Below are positions 55,097-63,526 of a stretch of 64,000 nt of DNA, piece by piece. A program made the translations under genes and the position numbers. The first letter of the stretch is position 1. Each line of letters starts with the position of its first letter. Source of the DNA: Paludibacter sp. (GTDB lineage: Bacteria; Bacteroidota; Bacteroidia; Bacteroidales; Paludibacteraceae). The notes beneath the pieces are model-generated. The model made no database searches, was not told the origin of the DNA, and worked only from the letters and a program-made list of their open reading frames with translations. Where the stretch lies: positions 62,001-126,000 of the forward strand of contig NZ_WASO01000002.1 in NCBI RefSeq assembly GCF_009712605.1, in the 5' to 3' direction.

Positions 55097-55741
55097 GTGC
55101 AAACAATAGAAATACACGACATTGTTCCTGATCCTATTGCCGACATTGCATCCAAATCGTCGGAAGTGTGGTTTAAGGATCATTCGTTTACACGCGGCAA
55201 ACACTACCTGATCACCGCCGAATCGGGTACCGGAAAATCTTCGTTTTTCGACTTCCTGTACGGACGTCGCCACGATTTTCAGGGCTCTATTACCTTCGAC
55301 GGAGCATCGCTTCATTCATTCAAAGTGCGCGACTGGAATAAGGTTCGCCAGCACAATATCAGTCTGGTTTTTCAGGGTTTCCGTCTTTTTCCGGAGCTTA
55401 CTGTTTGGGAAAATCTTCAGTTGAAGAATCACCAAACCGGCTATCTCTCCGATCAAAAGATGATGCAGATGCTCGAAACCCTTGGAATTCCGGAAAAGAA
55501 GGATATTCCGCTCCGGTTTATCTCTTACGGACAACAACAACGTGTGGCCATTATTCGTGCCATGTGCCAGCCTTTCGATTTCCTTTTGCTTGACGAGCCG
55601 TTTAGTCACCTCGATGAAGTAAACCAACGCACTATCTGCAATATGGTGAGTGCCGAACTGAAAGAACGCGGTGCAAGTCTTATGCTCTGCTCTCTCGGTG
55701 ATCCCTATTTCTTTGAATACGACGAAAAACTGAATATGTAA
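55097..55741 (+). CDS. LolD/MacB-like ABC transporter ATP-binding protein
   Basis: 214 residues, GTG start. Walker A AESGTGKSSFF; Q-loop LVFQGFRLF; Walker B FDFLLLDEPFSHLD. The signature loop reads FISYGQQQRVAIIRAM, not LSGGQ, and the switch region has LCSLGDPYF where a His is usual, so the hydrolysis site is divergent. It pairs with the FtsX-like permease 117 bases downstream. Such pairs extract lipoproteins or export peptides. Confidence 0.87.
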   Translation: MQTIEIHDIVPDPIADIASKSSEVWFKDHSFTRGKHYLITAESGTGKSSFFDFLYGRRHDFQGSITFDGASLHSFKVRDWNKVRQHNISLVFQGFRLFPELTVWENLQLKNHQTGYLSDQKMMQMLETLGIPEKKDIPLRFISYGQQQRVAIIRAMCQPFDFLLLDEPFSHLDEVNQRTICNMVSAELKERGASLMLCSLGDPYFFEYDEKLNM

Positions 55742-55748
55742 AATCAAT

Positions 55749-55856
55749 ATGATTTGAGAATGTGAAGATTTGAGGATGTGAAAATTTAGATTGAATCAAT
55801 TCGTTGCTTCATTTGTAATCCTCAAATTTCTAAATTCCCAAATCCCCAAATCAGGA
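55749..55856. repeat. Inverted repeat between ABC ATPase and permease genes
   Basis: GATTTGAGAATGTGAAGATT and GAGGATGTGAAAATTTAGA on the left are the imperfect inverse of AATCCTCAAATTTCTAAATT and CCCAAATCCCCAAATC on the right. 108 bases; it fills the gap between two genes that should be cotranscribed. Confidence 0.65.
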
Positions 55857-55858
55857 TT

Positions 55859-57046
55859 ATGTTACTCTGGAAATTATTACGCAAAAATATTGTGGCAGGG
55901 CAATTGGCCGGTTATGTTGCCGCCACGCTGCTGGGGCTTACTATCGTGTTGCTCTCCCTGCAATTTTATAACGATCTGCAACCGGTATTCAGTGCCAAGG
56001 AGGGCGTTTTTGCCCGTGACTACTTGGTCGTTAGTAAGAAAGTTTCTCTTCTGAAAACGCTGAAGATCAGTTCTACCGAGTTTTCGAAAAATGAAATGGC
56101 GGAAGTGCAGTCGCAGCCTTTTGTGAAACGGATGGCCGGATTCACCGCGGCAACATTCCGCGTGTATGCTTCTACAGCTATTTCGGGAAAGGTGGCAAAT
56201 TTCGGTACAATGCTCTTCTTTGAATCTGTGCCCGATACTTTTCTGGACATCAACTCTACGGACTGGAGATGGAGCCGGAATGCCAATTTTATCCCAATCA
56301 TCATTCCCCGTTCGTATCTGACGCTTTACAATTTTGGATTTGCTCCCAGTCAGGGATTGCCGCAGTTATCTGAAAAAACTATCGGTTTGTTAAATATGAA
56401 TATAGAGCTGTCGGGTAACGGCAAAGATGCTGTTTTTCAAAGCCGGATAGTTGGATTTACAGACCGGATCAATTCCATTTTGGTACCTCAGGAATTCATG
56501 GATTGGGCCAATGCTCAGTTTGGAACGGGCAGCGCACAACCTTCCCGTGTAATTATCGAGCCACATAATGTTACCGATCCGAAACTGGGCGAGTATTTCG
56601 CATCTCATCAGTATGAAATAGCCAACGATAAGGCATCGGCAGGGCAGGCATCGTCTTTTTTGCGTACCCTTATTCTTATTGTGATGGGGGTGGGGATTAT
56701 TATTACCCTGCTGGCTCTTGGGTTAATGCTGCTGAGTATCAACTTGCTCATTCAGAAGAATCATACCAAAATAGAAAATCTCTCGCTGATGGGCTTCTCG
56801 ACCGAGAAAATAGCGAAGCCTTATCAATATCTGGTGGTGATTCTCAATGTGGTGATTTTGCTGATAGCATTGGTGTTGGTGAATTACTTCAGGGGACAAT
56901 ATACCGCCAGTTTCAATACCAGTATTCATATCGATGATGGTAATCTGGCCTGGAATTATATTCTGTGGGGCGTTTATATTGTCGTCGCTCTCTCGGCCAT
57001 CAACATCGGCTGGATTTATATGAAGGTAAAAGAAATCAGAAAATAA
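55859..57046 (+). CDS. FtsX/MacB-like ABC transporter permease
   Basis: 395 residues. N-terminal membrane helix (QLAGYVAATLLGLTIVLLSL), a large periplasmic domain (~45-265) and three C-terminal helices: FLRTLILIVMGVGIIITLLALGLMLLSINLLI, YLVVILNVVILLIALVLVNYF, and WNYILWGVYIVVALSAINIGWIYMKV. The KIENLSLMGFSTEKIAKPYQ loop is typical of FtsX-like permeases. Partner of the upstream ATPase. Confidence 0.87.
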   Translation: MLLWKLLRKNIVAGQLAGYVAATLLGLTIVLLSLQFYNDLQPVFSAKEGVFARDYLVVSKKVSLLKTLKISSTEFSKNEMAEVQSQPFVKRMAGFTAATFRVYASTAISGKVANFGTMLFFESVPDTFLDINSTDWRWSRNANFIPIIIPRSYLTLYNFGFAPSQGLPQLSEKTIGLLNMNIELSGNGKDAVFQSRIVGFTDRINSILVPQEFMDWANAQFGTGSAQPSRVIIEPHNVTDPKLGEYFASHQYEIANDKASAGQASSFLRTLILIVMGVGIIITLLALGLMLLSINLLIQKNHTKIENLSLMGFSTEKIAKPYQYLVVILNVVILLIALVLVNYFRGQYTASFNTSIHIDDGNLAWNYILWGVYIVVALSAINIGWIYMKVKEIRK

Positions 57047-57053
57047 AAACAAA

Positions 57054-57100
57054 GCATCCCGGCTTAAAGATCGCTTGATCCGAAAGCCGGGATGTTTTTT
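57054..57100. terminator. Terminator between permease and WG-repeat gene
   Basis: CATCCCGGCTT and AAGCCGGGATG make a perfect stem followed by TTTTTT on the plus strand. The T run overlaps the stop codon of the convergent WG gene. Confidence 0.92.
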
Positions 57101-58709
57101 AGTGACTCCAGTATTCTAAACCATTTGTATTGATATATCCTTTTGTGTCGTCTTGTGTTCTAACGAGTGCCAGACCATTTTTGAAATCCGATACCCATTT
57201 GTATTTACAGGAAATGGTTAGTCGTCCTTTTTTGTTGATAAACCCTGCAAGTCCGTCCGCTTCGACCCATGCCATTCCTTCCGAAAACTGCCCGATAAAC
57301 TGATAATTGCAAGGTGTTATTTCTCGGCCTGTGATGTCGATTAAACCAAATTTGCCATCGCGTTTTACTCGTGCTAACCCGTTAATGAGAGGCTCGATTG
57401 CGTCGTATATGCAAGGGGCAATCTCAGTGCCGTTGAAGTCGATTATGCCCCATTGCCCGTTTAATTTGAAACAGGCCATAAAACTGGTGAATTTTCTCAC
57501 TGCGTCATACATACATGATACAATTTCTTGTTCATGTGTGTCGAAAATGCCCCAAAATCCCTCGGAATAGACGCCAATCAATCCCTCGCAAATTGATTTG
57601 ACGGCTTCGTATCTGCAAGGAACTATTATCTTCCCTTTTCGGTTGATGCATCCAACTTTCCCATTTATGGAGATTTCGGCGATGTTGTCTGAAAAGTGGC
57701 CTATGTAGTCAAACTTGCATGCAATCACTACGTCTCCCTTCGTATTTACTGCTCCCCAGTGAAAATCAGTCTGAACAATGGCTAATCCATCGTAAAACTG
57801 CCCGATTGTATCGTATTTGTACGGAATTATTTCATTTCCATCGATATCGGTATATCCCCAGTATCCGTCTTTTTGGCATCTGGCCATTTGGTTAATAAAC
57901 TGGTCGATAAATTGAAAAGAGCAAGTAACGGTTTCTTTTCCTGACGCATCCAAGTATCCCCATTTCCCGTTTCTTTTAACGCGGGCAATATTGTTGGCAA
58001 GCGATTCAATTTCAAAATACCTGCAGGTACGCTTGTCTTTACAAACAAGCTCAATTAAGCTCCAATCTTTATCTATTTTGACCTTTAGCAAATTTTTCTC
58101 GAATTTTTCAATATCGTTGTACCTGCAGGTAATTAATTCACATCCGGTGTAATCAACTACACCCCATTTTCTATTTGCCTTAATACTAAATAAGCCGTTG
58201 CCAAGATATTTAATGTTCTCGTGTGCGCATACTAAAATTTCTTCTCCAAAGTTGTTTATAGCGCCCCATTTGCCGTTTAGTTCCACTTCGGCGTATCCGT
58301 CTGTGAAGTTACCGATATAATCATACTTGCAGCTTGTAAGCCTTTTCCCTGTTTTGGTGGCTAATCCGTATTTGTTGTTTTGTTTGAGAATTATTTTGCC
58401 ATCGTTCAACCGTTCTATAGAATCATATCTGCATGGGTAAATTTCTTTGCCTGTATAGTCTATGAGCCCCCATTTTTGATTTGCTTTAATTGTTGCGTTG
58501 CCGCACCAGAATAGGCAGGCTTCCTCATAAACACATGGAATGATGACTTTTTGTATCGTATTGCAATAGCCCCATTTGTCTCCTTTTTTGTAAGGAATTA
58601 AAAGATTGTCGGTCGCAACTCCTGTCGGTTTAAATTTTCGTATAGTCCATTTATTCAGCCTTATTGCCTGAGGTCTGCCAAGTCTTATTTCTGGTTTGCC
58701 GGTAACCAT
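57099..58709 (-). CDS. WG-repeat protein A
   Basis: 536 residues made of 15 WG repeats of ~34-35 residues (KWGLIDYTGKEIYPCRYDSI and variants), with (I/V)xC(R/K)YD turns. No signal peptide or membrane segment, so it is probably cytoplasmic. A ~45-residue N-terminal extension precedes LLIPYKKGDKWGY. Repeats 10, 14 and 15 have lost the Trp (KVG, LAG, TKG). WG-repeat domains are thought to form beta folds for protein binding; function unknown. It follows the small W-Y-D-W-G peptide gene and is a full-length paralogue of the protein at 59715. Confidence 0.9.
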   Translation of the reverse strand: MVTGKPEIRLGRPQAIRLNKWTIRKFKPTGVATDNLLIPYKKGDKWGYCNTIQKVIIPCVYEEACLFWCGNATIKANQKWGLIDYTGKEIYPCRYDSIERLNDGKIILKQNNKYGLATKTGKRLTSCKYDYIGNFTDGYAEVELNGKWGAINNFGEEILVCAHENIKYLGNGLFSIKANRKWGVVDYTGCELITCRYNDIEKFEKNLLKVKIDKDWSLIELVCKDKRTCRYFEIESLANNIARVKRNGKWGYLDASGKETVTCSFQFIDQFINQMARCQKDGYWGYTDIDGNEIIPYKYDTIGQFYDGLAIVQTDFHWGAVNTKGDVVIACKFDYIGHFSDNIAEISINGKVGCINRKGKIIVPCRYEAVKSICEGLIGVYSEGFWGIFDTHEQEIVSCMYDAVRKFTSFMACFKLNGQWGIIDFNGTEIAPCIYDAIEPLINGLARVKRDGKFGLIDITGREITPCNYQFIGQFSEGMAWVEADGLAGFINKKGRLTISCKYKWVSDFKNGLALVRTQDDTKGYINTNGLEYWSH

Positions 58710-59130
58710 AATGAGATTTTGATTGATTGACTCTTTAGATAATGGTAAGAGATATGTGTACAGCTAAAATTCTGTAAATGATAGAAGTTTAGTTGAAAGT
58801 TGAAGGAGCTTGGAGTTCTCCTTCTTTCGATTGCCCGATCTTAAAATGTTTTACAGTATTGTGGGGTCCGCATAACGGATTGTGTATGCTCTCCAATGGG
58901 AATTTATATATGGAGAAGACGTTTCTCTATGCCTTCTCCCGACGCTAAAAGGAGTTTCATCAGGATGTTCAGGGATGGGTGTGTCATGTTGTGCAATAGT
59001 GTTTGTTTCGTGTTGGCTTAAGCGCTGACTGATGATCTGGTAGGGAATGAATGTGATGCGGGTTATCTATTTCGGAAAACAAAAAAGCCGGATAACTGTC
59101 TTATAGTGCGATAGAATTGGTTTTTTAGGT
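58710..59130. other. Gap between small peptide A and WG gene A
   Basis: 421 bases without a convincing gene on either strand. It would be transcribed if peptide and WG gene form one unit. A GGAG.. / ..CTCC rich stretch (AAGGAGCTTGGAGTTCTCCTTC near 58803-58825) can fold as a hairpin. Confidence 0.4.
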
Positions 59131-59328
59131 TTAACCCCAGTCATACCAAACGACACTACTGCTTACAACAGTGATTGTTATAGGCGCTTTCTCTCTATTG
59201 TCAGGCAGAGTGGTGGTCACAATCATTCTCTCGTTGTTACTGTCTTGTTGGGGCGGAAGAATTTGCTTGCGGGTAGTAGATAGTCTTCCTGTTACAGTCC
59301 TTGTGTGGTGCAAAGTTCTTGTTCTCAT
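59131..59328 (-). CDS. Small peptide A, C-terminus W-Y-D-W-G
   Basis: 65 residues, beginning MRTRTLHHTRTV and ending SSSVVWYDWG. No signal peptide; very basic first half. The same features (TLH[HY] near the start, SSVV, final W-[YF]-D-W-G) are in the peptide at 61590-61796, and both precede a WG-repeat gene, which is the main reason to believe it. An out-of-frame overlapping frame (59237-59443) is considered a shadow. It resembles a RiPP precursor in size and shape, but no modifying enzyme is in the window. Function unknown. Confidence 0.6.
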   Translation of the reverse strand: MRTRTLHHTRTVTGRLSTTRKQILPPQQDSNNERMIVTTTLPDNREKAPITITVVSSSVVWYDWG

Positions 59329-59714
59329 GTTTTGTTTGTTGAAGGTTCTTGTTGGAGAAAATCATTGGCAGAAAGAGTTTCAGATACATCACGTATTTCA
59401 GAAAAACTGCAATCGGCATTGCGCTTAAAATACAGAGAGTCACAGTGGAGGATCAGTTGCACATTGCAAATATAATCCCGAAAAGAATGAATTGATTTTT
59501 ATGGTGGGTTAAATCGGATCATGATTTGGTTAAATGGTGTAAATGCTAAGTAGTTAAAATAAGAATTGTTATGCCGGTTTATTCTAATATTTAGTCTCTT
59601 ATATGGAATAAATATCGGGTTGTATTTTCTGAATAATGAATCATTGACTAATGATTTCTTTGAATTGTTATAACAGACTCTTTTGAACCGATAGGTTTTT
59701 ATTGAGTTGAAAAA
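59329..59714. other. Region upstream of small peptide A
   Basis: 386 bases between the WG protein B stop and peptide A. It holds the peptide A promoter element and leader; the leader ends AACAAACAAAAC just before the start codon, like AACAAACTAAAC ahead of peptide B. No other gene is seen. Confidence 0.45.
59467..59474 (-). promoter_or_regulatory. -7 element upstream of small peptide A
   Basis: TATATTTG on the minus strand, exact -7 match, 139 bases before the peptide start. No clear -33 TTTG. The layout equals that upstream of peptide B. Confidence 0.5.
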
Positions 59715-61325
59715 TTAGTCCTCCCAATATGTGGAGCCGTTACTATGTACGAATCCGATTGTGTTATTGTCAAGACCCGCGATGGCAAGGTTATCTTCGA
59801 ACTCCCAGACCCATTTATACTTGCAGGGTATTGTTTCCTGACCGCCTTTGTTAATGAATCCTGATTTTGAATTTGCCTCTACCCAAGCCAACCCGTTTGA
59901 GAATTTTCCGATATGTTTATATTTGCATCTGACGATTTCCTCTCCTCTGGTATTGATTAATCCGGCAAGAGATTTGTTGTATACGCGGGCCACTTCATCG
60001 TGAGGTTCTTCAATCTTATCATACCTGCACGGTACAATCTCTCTTCCTGTGTAATCAATAATGCCCCATTTTCCTCTGATTTTTACGAGAATCATCGTGT
60101 CATTGAATCGTGCAATTGCATCATAAACGGTGGATGTTAAGGAGAGACCGGCTGGATTTATCAGGTTCCAGTAGCCATTTAGATGTACCCCGTAAGTGTT
60201 TTTGCAGATTGACTTAATGGATTCATATCCTGAAAATAGCATTACTCTAAAGTTTTTATTGATAACGCCTAGTCTGTCATTAACGGCAATTTCTGCTTTT
60301 CCGTTAGAGAAATTGCCAATAAAAGAGTATTGAAACGGAGCTTTTATTTCGCCAAAATTGTTAATGATGCCCCAACGATTGTTTTTGCAAACTCCGGCTA
60401 AATGCTCATGAAAATCATTGACCATATCATATTTGCAGGTAATGACTTCGAGACCGGCTGTGTCGACAAATCCCCATTGGCCGTTATGTAAACAGCGTGC
60501 CAGTCCGTCAGAGAAATCTCCTATTTGCTTGTATATACACGGTACGGCGATCGCTCCGGTTTTGTCAATATATCCCCATTTCCCATTGATTTTGACTTTG
60601 CATAAACCGTTGTTTATGCTTTCCATGACCGTGTAATGACAGGGAACGATTTCTGTCCCATCGGAATCAATAATGCCCCATCTCCGATTGTCACTAACCC
60701 GAAATAATGAACTGCCAAAAATATCGATGCTATTAAATCTGCTAGGGGTGATTTCATGACCGGAACTGTCAACCAATGCCCAGAGTTTATTTGTGCAAGC
60801 GGCAAAATACCCATTCCCGAAATTCTTTAGATTACGATATCTGACAGGCAAAACTTCTTTACCAGAGATAGAAAGAATTCCTCTTTTGTCGTCGTTTTCC
60901 ACTTCGGCATATCCATTGTGAAATTTGCTGATAAAATCATATTTACATGGAATAATTTCCATTCCAAATATATCTGTTAAGCCCCATTTGCCTCCTTGTT
61001 TTACAGATAAAATCGTTTCGGTATTCACATCAATAGCATCGTAATGACAGTTTATCAGTTCATTGCCATTATTAGTAATTATGCCCCATTTGTTATTCTT
61101 TGATACGAAGGCAATTCCGTTTTTGAATTTCCGAACAGCGTCATATTTACATGGAATAATTAATCTCTTTTGAAGGTTGGAGAACCCCCACTTAGTCCCT
61201 TTTCTGTAAGGAATTAATATGTTTTCGGCTTGTAGGTCAAAATCCGAATTGAAAAGAGTGGGTCTGAGGGGTAGTCTGACGACAGAACGTCTGTTGTACG
61301 AGGAAAGGATGCTATTTTCTTCCAT
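59715..61325 (-). CDS. WG-repeat protein B
   Basis: 536 residues, 15 WG repeats in the same order and register as protein A (KWGIITNNGNEL, KWGLTDIFGMEI, RWGIIDSDGTEI, KWGYIDKTGAIA, KWGIIDYTGREI). Repeats 10, 14 and 15 are degenerate in both proteins, so this is a whole-gene duplication followed by strong divergence. The N-terminal segment leads to NILIPYRKGTKWGF, matching protein A. Probably cytoplasmic. Follows peptide B by 264 bases. Confidence 0.9.
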   Translation of the reverse strand: MEENSILSSYNRRSVVRLPLRPTLFNSDFDLQAENILIPYRKGTKWGFSNLQKRLIIPCKYDAVRKFKNGIAFVSKNNKWGIITNNGNELINCHYDAIDVNTETILSVKQGGKWGLTDIFGMEIIPCKYDFISKFHNGYAEVENDDKRGILSISGKEVLPVRYRNLKNFGNGYFAACTNKLWALVDSSGHEITPSRFNSIDIFGSSLFRVSDNRRWGIIDSDGTEIVPCHYTVMESINNGLCKVKINGKWGYIDKTGAIAVPCIYKQIGDFSDGLARCLHNGQWGFVDTAGLEVITCKYDMVNDFHEHLAGVCKNNRWGIINNFGEIKAPFQYSFIGNFSNGKAEIAVNDRLGVINKNFRVMLFSGYESIKSICKNTYGVHLNGYWNLINPAGLSLTSTVYDAIARFNDTMILVKIRGKWGIIDYTGREIVPCRYDKIEEPHDEVARVYNKSLAGLINTRGEEIVRCKYKHIGKFSNGLAWVEANSKSGFINKGGQETIPCKYKWVWEFEDNLAIAGLDNNTIGFVHSNGSTYWED

Positions 61326-61589
61326 ACTGTTCAGGTATTAGGGTTCGTAATCAACAAAATTTGACAGATGAAACAATTTGAATGTAATGGATGGTGAAAA
61401 TATTGTTTGTATAAGTATCAATTATACAATTGTTTACGTTGTGTTGTATTTGTGGTTTGAGGGTGACGCGTCGCCTGCCCATCATATAAACTATAATAGG
61501 AATAGTCTGATCTGCAACATTATTGCTGCATACATCAGTAAAAATAGAAAATGAGAAGCTACAAAATCAGAAAAGTTCTCTTTAGAAGA

Positions 61590-61796
61590 TTACCCCCAAT
61601 CGAACCAGGGAGTGTGTGGCTTTTTTAAAACGACCGAAGAATAAATGGTTGACTCAATGATGAAAGAGCCGACATCGTTTCTGCTTATTGGTGTAGCAGG
61701 TTGGTTGTTTTGTGATGAGTTTTTTCCAGTATTATTCAACCTCTCTTGTGCGCTCAACGCGTTTGGCTTCCTGTAATGTAATGTGTCTTTTTTCAT
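61590..61796 (-). CDS. Small peptide B, C-terminus W-F-D-W-G
   Basis: 68 residues, beginning MKKDTLHYRKPNALS and ending SSVVLKKPHTPWFDWG. Polar, Asn/Gln-rich middle (NNTGKNSSQNNQPATP); no signal peptide. Homologous in plan to peptide A: TLH[HY], SSVV and the final W-[YF]-D-W-G. First gene after a promoter on the minus strand and followed by WG protein B. Precursor-peptide-like, function unknown. Confidence 0.62.
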   Translation of the reverse strand: MKKDTLHYRKPNALSAQERLNNTGKNSSQNNQPATPISRNDVGSFIIESTIYSSVVLKKPHTPWFDWG

Positions 61797-61948
61797 ACAG
61801 TCTTGAGGTTTAGTTTGTTAGAATATCAGTTGTAATAACAAGTGCTTCAAAAAGAATATGCAATGCTTTCAGTAATAGTAAAATTTCCCTATGAGTCGTA
61901 AGTAATATTACGGTGATGTGAAAATAATTATGTAGAATTATACTTTCA

Positions 61949-61956
61949 CAAATATA
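61949..61956 (-). promoter_or_regulatory. -7 element upstream of small peptide B
   Basis: TATATTTG on the minus strand, exact match, 153 bases before the peptide start. No TTTG at the usual distance. Confidence 0.5.
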
Positions 61957-62313
61957 GTATTACAAATGAAAAATAGATTTTAATTGAGGTGAAATTAACG
62001 TGATTTAACGTTAATTAAATTCAAATATATAATGTTGAATTCAGGTAGTATTTGGATGTAATTTGTAAAATATTAGATACATATGATATTTCATTCCGAC
62101 TTGTTTATGGTTAAATAATGTTTTCTTAATAATTTCTTATTGGAAATTATAATTGAATTTTTATGTAGTGAATGGTACTTGCATTTTGTTTTGATGGGGA
62201 TATGAAAATATGGTGGTTAATTAAATGTTATGTTGGTTTTTATCTCTAATTTTGGTGTTGAGGCTATTTATTTCTGAAATGTTATTGTAAATATTTGTTT
62301 AGATTAAAAATTG

Positions 62314-62321
62314 TATATTTG
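62314..62321 (+). promoter_or_regulatory. -7 element of AraC-type gene
   Basis: TATATTTG, exact TAnnTTTG, 72 bases before the start. A TTTG at 62294-62297 is only 16 bases upstream, short of the usual spacing. Confidence 0.5.
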
Positions 62322-62392
62322 CGGTCGCAAAATGCTCACAAGTATCCTTTGGTCTTTACTTAAAGAAAGGTTATAACACAAAAAGCTGTCAG

Positions 62393-63526
62393 ATGGATAG
62401 TTCTATTACTTTATATGTAAATACGACCCTGATTATAAGTTGTTTGGTGTTTGCTATCGTTTTTTTTGCCTTTCCTTTACCTCCTAATTTGAAAGGATTA
62501 AAGAGTTATAAGGTTTCCCTCCGTACTTTAGGTGCCGCTTATTTTCTATTTGCCTTTTTGGTTTTAATATCAGAAGCCATTGACGAACCGGAAGTGGATT
62601 TGTTATCAGTGATAAATTTGAATATCTCATCGCTGCAAGCTATTTTATTTACCATGGCATTGGTCATTTTGCTTAATCCTGCCAAAGTGACCAGAAAATA
62701 TCTGCTTAAACATGTGAGCCCGATAATCGCTTTTGATCTTGTTTATACTTTGGTTGCTCTGCGTTGGGGAAATCCGGAGATTAGTAATTTAGATGCTTTA
62801 GTGAAACTTAGCCTGATACCGCCAATCGTTATCAGAGAGTGTTTTTGGCTGTTTTTTGTGATTCAGCTTGGGTATTTGACAACAATATTCATTCGTGAAG
62901 TGAAGAATTATGATAAGGCGTTAGATGATTATTTTTCTGATGGTTATAAGATACATATCCGGTGGGTATCTATCTGTTATTATTCGGCCTTGTCATTGGG
63001 GATATTTGGTGTGTTTATGATGTGTCTATTCTCTTTTGTGTGGGAAATTGTCTTTACGTTGTGTTGTGTTGTATATTATGTGGGATTTGGTGCCTGCTAT
63101 ATTCAATATCCCAGAACCTTTATAAAGATAGAGCCTGTCATTTCACCCGTTATTCCGATACCTGAAGTTCACCTGAAAGTCAATAATCGTTTTTCGTGGA
63201 CAGAGCTTAAGAGTAAAGTATTGAAAGAAAAATATTATACCCGTATGGGGGTAAATATTGAAGATATGGCTCAATATTTGAAGGTGGGTCGAACGACGCT
63301 GTCCGGTTTTATCAATAAAGAAGAAGGTGTTAATTTTAATTCATGGATTCGCCGGCTTCGTATCGATGAGGCTATTCGTTTGTTACAGGAAAATCCTGAA
63401 TATTCCTTGAGTCAGATATCTGAAATGGTAGGTTATAGTGAACCTTCAAATTTTAGTCGTCAATTTAAGACTGAGACCGGTATTTCTCCTTCCGAATGGT
63501 GTCAGCAAAAGCGTATTCTTGCATAA
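62393..63526 (+). CDS. Membrane-bound AraC-family regulator
   Basis: 377 residues. The first ~260 residues hold about seven membrane segments (LIISCLVFAIVFFAFPL, LGAAYFLFAFLVLISEAI, AILFTMALVILLNP, FWLFFVIQLGYLTTIFI, ALSLGIFGVFMMCLFSFVWEIVF, CCVVYYVGFGACYI). The last ~95 are an AraC DNA-binding domain: VNIEDMAQYLKVGRTTLSGFINKEEGVNFNSWIRRLRIDEAIRLLQENPEYSLSQISEMVGYSEPSNFSRQFKTETGISPSEW. The plan suggests direct membrane sensing with DNA binding. It is divergent from the peptide/WG genes, making them candidate targets (inference). Confidence 0.9.
   Translation: MDSSITLYVNTTLIISCLVFAIVFFAFPLPPNLKGLKSYKVSLRTLGAAYFLFAFLVLISEAIDEPEVDLLSVINLNISSLQAILFTMALVILLNPAKVTRKYLLKHVSPIIAFDLVYTLVALRWGNPEISNLDALVKLSLIPPIVIRECFWLFFVIQLGYLTTIFIREVKNYDKALDDYFSDGYKIHIRWVSICYYSALSLGIFGVFMMCLFSFVWEIVFTLCCVVYYVGFGACYIQYPRTFIKIEPVISPVIPIPEVHLKVNNRFSWTELKSKVLKEKYYTRMGVNIEDMAQYLKVGRTTLSGFINKEEGVNFNSWIRRLRIDEAIRLLQENPEYSLSQISEMVGYSEPSNFSRQFKTETGISPSEWCQQKRILA

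Follow-up and report, generated by a model that had tools for sequence, protein, structure and literature searches.

TnaC is an arrest leader peptide, with ribosome stalling at its end, and arrest leaders of this type are among the described systems closest to the genes reported here. We analysed a 64 000-nucleotide stretch of Paludibacter sp. (RefSeq assembly GCF_009712605.1, contig NZ_WASO01000002.1, positions 62 001–126 000; the whole stretch is called the window below), the minus strand of which carries two cassettes, B and A, each with a gene for a small protein (pepB or pepA) followed by a gene for a WG-repeat protein (WG_B or WG_A). As in TnaC-type leaders, a short frame with constrained residues, including tryptophan, before its stop codon is followed by a long spacer. 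The window peptides differ from those leaders in being longer (65–68 residues), in that the gene downstream is not one of amino-acid metabolism and in that no terminator or supported RNA structure was found in their spacers. On the side of the larger protein, a table in one paper lists the WG family among modelled repeat families that lack a known structure (PMC8078820), and another paper names one putative WG repeat-containing lipoprotein in a passage on genes linked to RsmA (PMC8855297). Among the matches listed by our literature searches, judged on titles and the starts of abstracts, no paper on the function of the WG family was found; searches for 'WFDWG' or 'WYDWG' gave only matches unrelated by title, and a broad search on small proteins gave nothing relevant among the matches listed. 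As far as these searches reach, the pairing of peptide and WG protein is undescribed.

The minus-strand order is promoter, leader, pepB, spacer, WG_B, promoter, leader, pepA, spacer, WG_A and a hairpin with a T-rich run. The elements of the two cassettes are as follows.

61949..61956, minus strand: Bacteroidota-type -7 promoter element TATATTTG of cassette B, 160 nt before the ATG
61590..61796, minus strand: pepB, small protein of 68 residues with the C-terminus PWFDWG (W-F-D-W-G)
61326..61589, minus strand: spacer between pepB and WG_B, 264 nt
59715..61325, minus strand: WG_B, WG-repeat protein of 536 residues (PF14903, E = 8e-107)
59467..59474, minus strand: -7 promoter element TATATTTG of cassette A, 146 nt before the ATG
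59131..59328, minus strand: pepA, small protein of 65 residues with the C-terminus VWYDWG (W-Y-D-W-G)
58710..59130, minus strand: spacer between pepA and WG_A, 421 nt
57099..58709, minus strand: WG_A, WG-repeat protein of 536 residues (PF14903, E = 4e-108)

An earlier note, made from the letters of the window, had described these frames with their lengths and order, the W-[YF]-D-W-G ends of both peptides, a promoter before each cassette, WG proteins with 15 repeats in the same register and a duplication of the whole cassette. Each of these points was borne out, with the refinements that the repeats amount to 14 full units and a degenerate fifteenth and that the duplicated cassette is also conserved in other genomes.

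Conservation was examined in eight genomes of the same genus (G000–G007, where G000 is the window's own and G001 is 78% complete). Cassettes are present in four of them: G000, G005 and G002 each contain both A and B (WG_A of G002 being split across two contigs) and G006 contains a single cassette, giving seven peptide copies. The other four genomes (G001, G003, G004 and G007) have the ABC permease gene found beside the cassettes, no peptide and no match to WG_A at E = 1e-3. All seven peptide frames are intact and free of frameshifts, and their length is constant by type (198 nt for A and G006, 207 nt for B). Compared with G005 and G002, the window's pepA shows 13 and 28 nucleotide differences in 195 nt and its pepB 28 and 33 in 204 nt. 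Pairwise dN/dS is 0.075, 0.166 and 0.239 for pepA and 0.234, 0.289 and 0.536 for pepB, so that five of the six ortholog comparisons lie between 0.07 and 0.29 and the sixth is at 0.54. Third positions carry an excess of the changes in four non-independent comparisons (p = 0.0016, 0.0027, 0.008 and 0.051), and the peptide coding DNA diverges less than the spacers (78–79% identity for the A spacer, 65% for the B spacer). The earlier note had named a peptide frame left to random change, in relatives that keep the WG genes, as grounds for giving up its reading; the retention of the frames in half of the genus genomes and the purifying dN/dS values indicate instead that both are real genes under purifying selection. 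The peptide genes are also a case of missed genes: conserved, shorter than 70 codons and without a match in Pfam or PHROGs. PADLOC likewise gave no match to the peptides, and the sole NCBIfam match was that of pepA at E = 0.19.

The small proteins start with a basic N-terminal part (their first 25 residues carry a net charge of +4 to +6), followed by a polar middle that varies and a tail that is conserved. The only invariant columns are Met1 and the terminal W, D, W and G, and W-x-D-W-G followed by a stop codon is present in all seven copies. The codons for these last residues vary (TTC/TTT, TAT/TAC, GAT/GAC, GGG/GGA/GGT) while the residues hold, and the tail segment contains five (A) and four (B) further synonymous codon changes. 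Residue-variable sites in the N-terminal part, middle and tail number 1/18, 9/29 and 2/17 in the A trio and 5/18, 11/33 and 3/16 in the B trio; identities between pepA and the G006 peptide over the same three parts are 5/18, 5/26 and 11/20. Constraint at the protein level is clear only in the tail. Judged by eye, the peptides are hydrophilic and no signal peptide is evident in either the peptides or the WG proteins.

Both WG proteins belong to PF14903, with scores of 353 and 349 bits against a curated cut-off of 25.6, and Pfam finds 14 and 13 WG_beta_rep stretches in the two. Residues 31–534 of WG_A align with residues 31–534 of WG_B at 39.7% identity and without offset. The W/G anchors recur every 34 residues from residue 46, which gives each protein 14 full units (five proteins yielded 70); a fifteenth, which by reading lies near residues 522–524, is degenerate and truncated by the C-terminus. 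Each protein contains 14–15 tryptophans, and both share with many aligned relatives a LIPYRKGxKWG start. An AlphaFold2 model of WG_A built from 21 sequences (mean pLDDT of 89.4, pTM of 0.73) has residues 1–34 disordered and the rest as confident β-repeats. A Foldseek search of the PDB with this model returned WD40 and other β-propeller proteins with E values down to 1e-12; the query TM-scores are low (0.17–0.29 among the 50 matches listed), so the likeness of WG_A to a β-propeller is only local. No PDB chain is related in sequence to the WG protein at E = 0.01.

Peptide and WG gene were inherited together, in seven copies from four genomes and always in the same order. Between G000 and G005, WG_A is 87% and WG_B 81% identical; compared with the 39.7% between WG_A and WG_B, these values place the duplication before the split of these species. 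The WG protein of G006 is 53% identical to WG_A and 39% to WG_B, and the G006 peptide matches pepA (34%) and does not match pepB at E = 1e-3. Both genes of the single cassette are therefore A-like, which indicates that the two travelled together. In the eight genus genomes, the peptide never occurs without an A/B-type WG gene, nor such a gene without the peptide; WG-repeat genes of more distant types, on contig 6 of G000 and contig 24 of G006, do lack a peptide.

The C-terminal motif is similarly restricted and is more than a chance pattern. W-x-D-W-G followed by TRR occurs ten times in the eight genus genomes, seven times at the peptides and three times, all within one long adhesin-like frame, with TGG instead of a stop codon; with a stop codon the motif is confined to the seven peptides, every one of which precedes a WG gene. 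In 358 genomes of the family, W-[FY]-D-W-G with TRR has one extra match, which by eye overlaps an alanine-racemase-like frame. Beyond the window's own two peptides, a peptide profile found nothing below E = 0.028 in 393 genomes of the order and nothing below E = 0.011 in 395 genomes of the phylum; three of the eight leftover phylum matches were inspected (L179, L181 and L185) and overlap larger or unrelated frames, and ten leftover order matches were dismissed on their table values alone. Frames of 20–140 codons ending in W-x-D-W-G were sought in 136 loci (L015–L150) and found only in this genus. Of these loci, 111 come from outside the genus, and a WG gene was the reason for choosing 100 of the 111 (26 with short flanks, and 74 of 77 from a search that kept the best 80 of 104 matches, some ending at contig edges); unlike the window's WG genes, the PF14903 genes at these 100 loci have no such peptide frame, and five frames elsewhere satisfy only the looser rule of ending in WG. 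No match to pepA was found in phages; three WG loci occur on viral contigs, and distant WG proteins, all below 60% identity, occur in 28 plasmid records. The recurrence of W-x-D-W-G frames upstream of WG genes that the earlier note had hoped for was not found in the family, order and phylum genomes or in the 100 outside WG loci. The peptide–WG pairing is real and lineage-specific, and wide recurrence is unsupported.

The Bacteroidota -7 promoter element has the consensus TAnnTTTG. Counted with its complement, TATATTTG is the single 8-mer common to all seven regions upstream of the peptides, 131–161 nt before the ATG; in cassette B it lies at -161 in G005 and at -131 in G002. None of the seven spacers that separate a peptide from its WG gene contains TAnnTTTG; the WG gene therefore probably uses the promoter of the peptide, and the two genes would be co-transcribed.

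We propose that the small protein acts in trans as a dedicated adaptor or regulator of a cytosolic WG scaffold, and place the probability of this reading at roughly 0.36. Each copy of the module would be transcribed from its own TATATTTG promoter, 131–161 nt before the peptide start, and would encode a small soluble protein followed by a cytosolic WG protein of 15 repeats. The aromatic C-terminal tail might dock on the WG repeat scaffold while the basic N-terminal part contacts something else, which would make the peptide a two-headed adaptor or regulator of the scaffold. The purifying selection, the constant order, the co-duplication, the matching A-type relationships and the exclusivity of the motif in the genus all point this way, as do a tail held as residues while its codons vary and the confident β-repeat model of WG_A. 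Physical binding of the peptide to the WG protein, and with it the adaptor role, is what these observations suggest. One may also entertain, with odds well short of even, either a two-headed small protein, ending in a W-[FY]-D-W-G hook, that operates the WG scaffold or is sensed by it, or a new nascent-chain arrest motif that controls WG genes. With such a hook, a WG-repeat protein would have its first known ligand. WG-repeat proteins occur in many bacteria, and a conserved and exclusive small partner would offer a handle on what the WG scaffold does or binds.

Several observations weigh against a partner that binds the scaffold. An AlphaFold2 model of a pepB–WG_B fusion, a read-through construct that was possible because both genes share a frame, shows no docking, with peptide pLDDT values of 24–38 in blocks of ten residues, tail included; this negative is weak owing to the shallow alignment and the artificial linker. 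A hidden Markov model (HMM) of the 70 WG repeats aligns to no peptide tail. Constraint on the N-terminal part as protein is not clear: five of its 18 residues vary in the B trio, pepA and the G006 peptide share only five of 18 positions, and in the A trio, where one of 18 residues varies, only three of 18 codons and four of 54 nucleotides vary at all; with so few nucleotide changes, protein and nucleotide constraint are indistinguishable in the A trio. The untranslated spacer of 262–452 nt between the peptide and the WG start is unusual for a simple operon, and restriction of the pair to one subclade means that there is no independent recurrence. The idea of the tail as a cap for the WG hairpin was rejected: the A/S-type peptide tails are β-hairpin-like and MAFFT set them on the last WG repeat, but the repeat HMM scores four of the seven peptides at only -1.6 to -3.1 bits, over residues 18–26 (21–25 in pepB), and 13, 15, 23 and 47 of 300 shuffled bodies with the tail kept reached these scores.

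The main rival to an adaptor acting in trans, and in our judgement a rather unlikely one, is that the peptide is a leader acting in cis, with its translation and stalling at W-[FY]-D-W-G-stop controlling expression of the WG gene downstream. All of the invariant residues except Met1 abut the stop codon in the seven copies, as expected of an arrest leader; the peptide is the first frame past the promoter, with the long spacer still to come before the WG start, and two of its last five codons specify tryptophan, of which the WG proteins themselves have 14–15. The A spacer is well conserved (301 of 456 columns invariant in G000, G005 and G002) and, taken with the peptide tail, folds better than its shuffles (z = -2.35, equalled by 2 of 100). 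The B spacer with the peptide tail folds as by chance (z = -0.40), and the consensus folds of the spacers gain no support from covariation (+0.25 with 6 of 76 pairs changed on both sides for A, +3.12 with 2 of 43 for B, from three sequences each). A candidate attenuator, in which a UAACCC in the A spacer forms a stem with the W-G-stop codons upstream of it, fails because this UAACCC is altered and the stem lost in G005 and G002. Scans of the cassettes of the window, G005 and G006 for loops of up to 8 nt found no terminator-like site on the coding strand, and Rfam gave no match inside the cassettes.

Alternatively, the small protein could be co-expressed with the WG protein without any physical link and do a job of its own, for example nucleic-acid or membrane binding through its basic part. 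The lack of a docking signal in the fusion model, the basic charge itself and the distant WG-repeat genes of G000 and G006 that lack a peptide would all fit. Such independence sits poorly with the co-duplication, the constant order and the failure of either gene to occur alone in the genus, and we regard it as improbable.

A toxin–antitoxin or toxin–immunity pair is very unlikely. The small frame beside a larger one, duplicated and lineage-specific, has the outline of such a pair; however, PADLOC gave no match to any of the four cassette proteins, none falls in a known toxin or antitoxin family, the peptides have no Pfam match and a single NCBIfam model at E = 0.19, they are hydrophilic by eye and the cassettes keep the same flanking genes in four genomes. 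Least probable is a ribosomally synthesized and post-translationally modified peptide precursor or pheromone with a W-[FY]-D-W-G core: the N-terminal part is leader-like, the C-terminus is conserved and aromatic and an ABC transporter adjoins, but neither the cassette nor any of the three flanking genes tested encodes a modification enzyme, and the ABC permease is present in all eight genus genomes, including the four without a cassette, and is thus not linked to the peptide. Neither reading has positive evidence.

Around and between the cassettes lie the following further features.

62393..63526, plus strand: divergent AraC-type regulator gene (HTH_18, E = 8e-20; N-terminal half hydrophobic by eye)
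61995..62010, minus strand: CGTTAA(N4)CGTTAA direct repeat, lying before the promoter of cassette B
59434..59454, minus strand: leader block GATCCTCCACTGTGACTCTCT, conserved in the 5' leaders of cassette A and the one cassette of G006
57041..57094, no strand assigned: putative terminator past WG_A, read by eye as a hairpin CATCCCGGCTT..AAGCCGGGATG followed by a T-rich run
55097–57046: ABC transporter, adjoining the cassettes

The leader block (GATCCYCCACTGYGANNCTCT, 59434–59454) occurs once in each of four of the eight genus genomes and nowhere else at up to two mismatches. Identity between the A and G006 upstream regions is 0.70 at -160 to -100 versus 0.46–0.48 further upstream. The folded leader RNA gives a covariation term of +1.12, with 2 of 30 pairs changed on both sides in four sequences. 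In the direct repeat, the second CGTTAA is kept in G005 and G002 and the first is degenerate there; the repeat may be a regulator site. The AraC-type gene could control the cassette. It has orthologues next to cassette B in both G005 and G002 and none next to the single cassette of G006; paralogues with 45–49% identity occur at other sites of the four cassette genomes, accompanied by neither a peptide nor a WG gene. By eye, the paralogue sits between gltX- and pfkA-like genes at three loci (L175, L176 and L178), and an extra gene pair intervenes at the fourth (L177). This pair, of 1170 and 308 residues, lies between the paralogue and the gltX-like gene in G002 (L177:8613-13048) and is missing at the corresponding site in the other three cassette genomes. 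AraC regulators with hydrophobic N-terminal halves were found only in the four of eight genus genomes that have cassettes. The G+C content is 0.358 in the bin starting at 60000, where the AraC gene and the long stretch upstream of cassette B lie, versus 0.42 for the window.

The putative terminator (57094–57041) is common to WG_A and the convergent ABC permease gene; the terminator scan, with its loop limit of 8, missed this hairpin. Three flanking genes were tested (the AraC regulator, the ABC ATPase and the ABC permease), and all four cassette genomes have the cassettes between the same neighbours, those of G002 being spread over two contigs.

An N-terminal S-[IL]-x-[IV]-T-[NE]-K-L-L tail heads WG proteins of other Bacteroidota that lie near a phospholipase D (PLD)-like protein, as at the following loci.

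L106:3983-6669 and L107:632-3220: tailed WG protein adjoining a PLD-like protein (PLDc_2 and DnaJ by Pfam)
L137:5989-8968: tailed WG protein adjoining a PLD-like protein (similar N-terminal sequence only)
L141:5989-10028: two minus-strand frames between the tailed WG protein and the PLD-like protein (similar N-terminal sequence only)

Like the window's WG proteins, those of L106, L107, L137 and L141 have no evident signal peptide and a short N-terminal arm before LIPYRK; unlike theirs, the window arms do not match the tail, and no small peptide partner was found at those loci. This tail has the look of a docking signal that is portable between proteins. Transfer of this idea to the window was rejected: with an HMM of eight tails, 72–159 of 300 shuffles did as well as six window-type WG arms, five of the seven peptides gave no score and the scores of the other two were reached by 176 and 28 of 300 shuffles. 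An FRG-domain protein (L107:3266-4180; PF08867, E = 3e-17) directly follows the PLD–DnaJ and WG pair. At L102:4367-4852 the tail heads a response-regulator receiver protein, and the tailed WG proteins of L081:563-3740 and L102:4367-7011 follow a gene of 288–303 residues.

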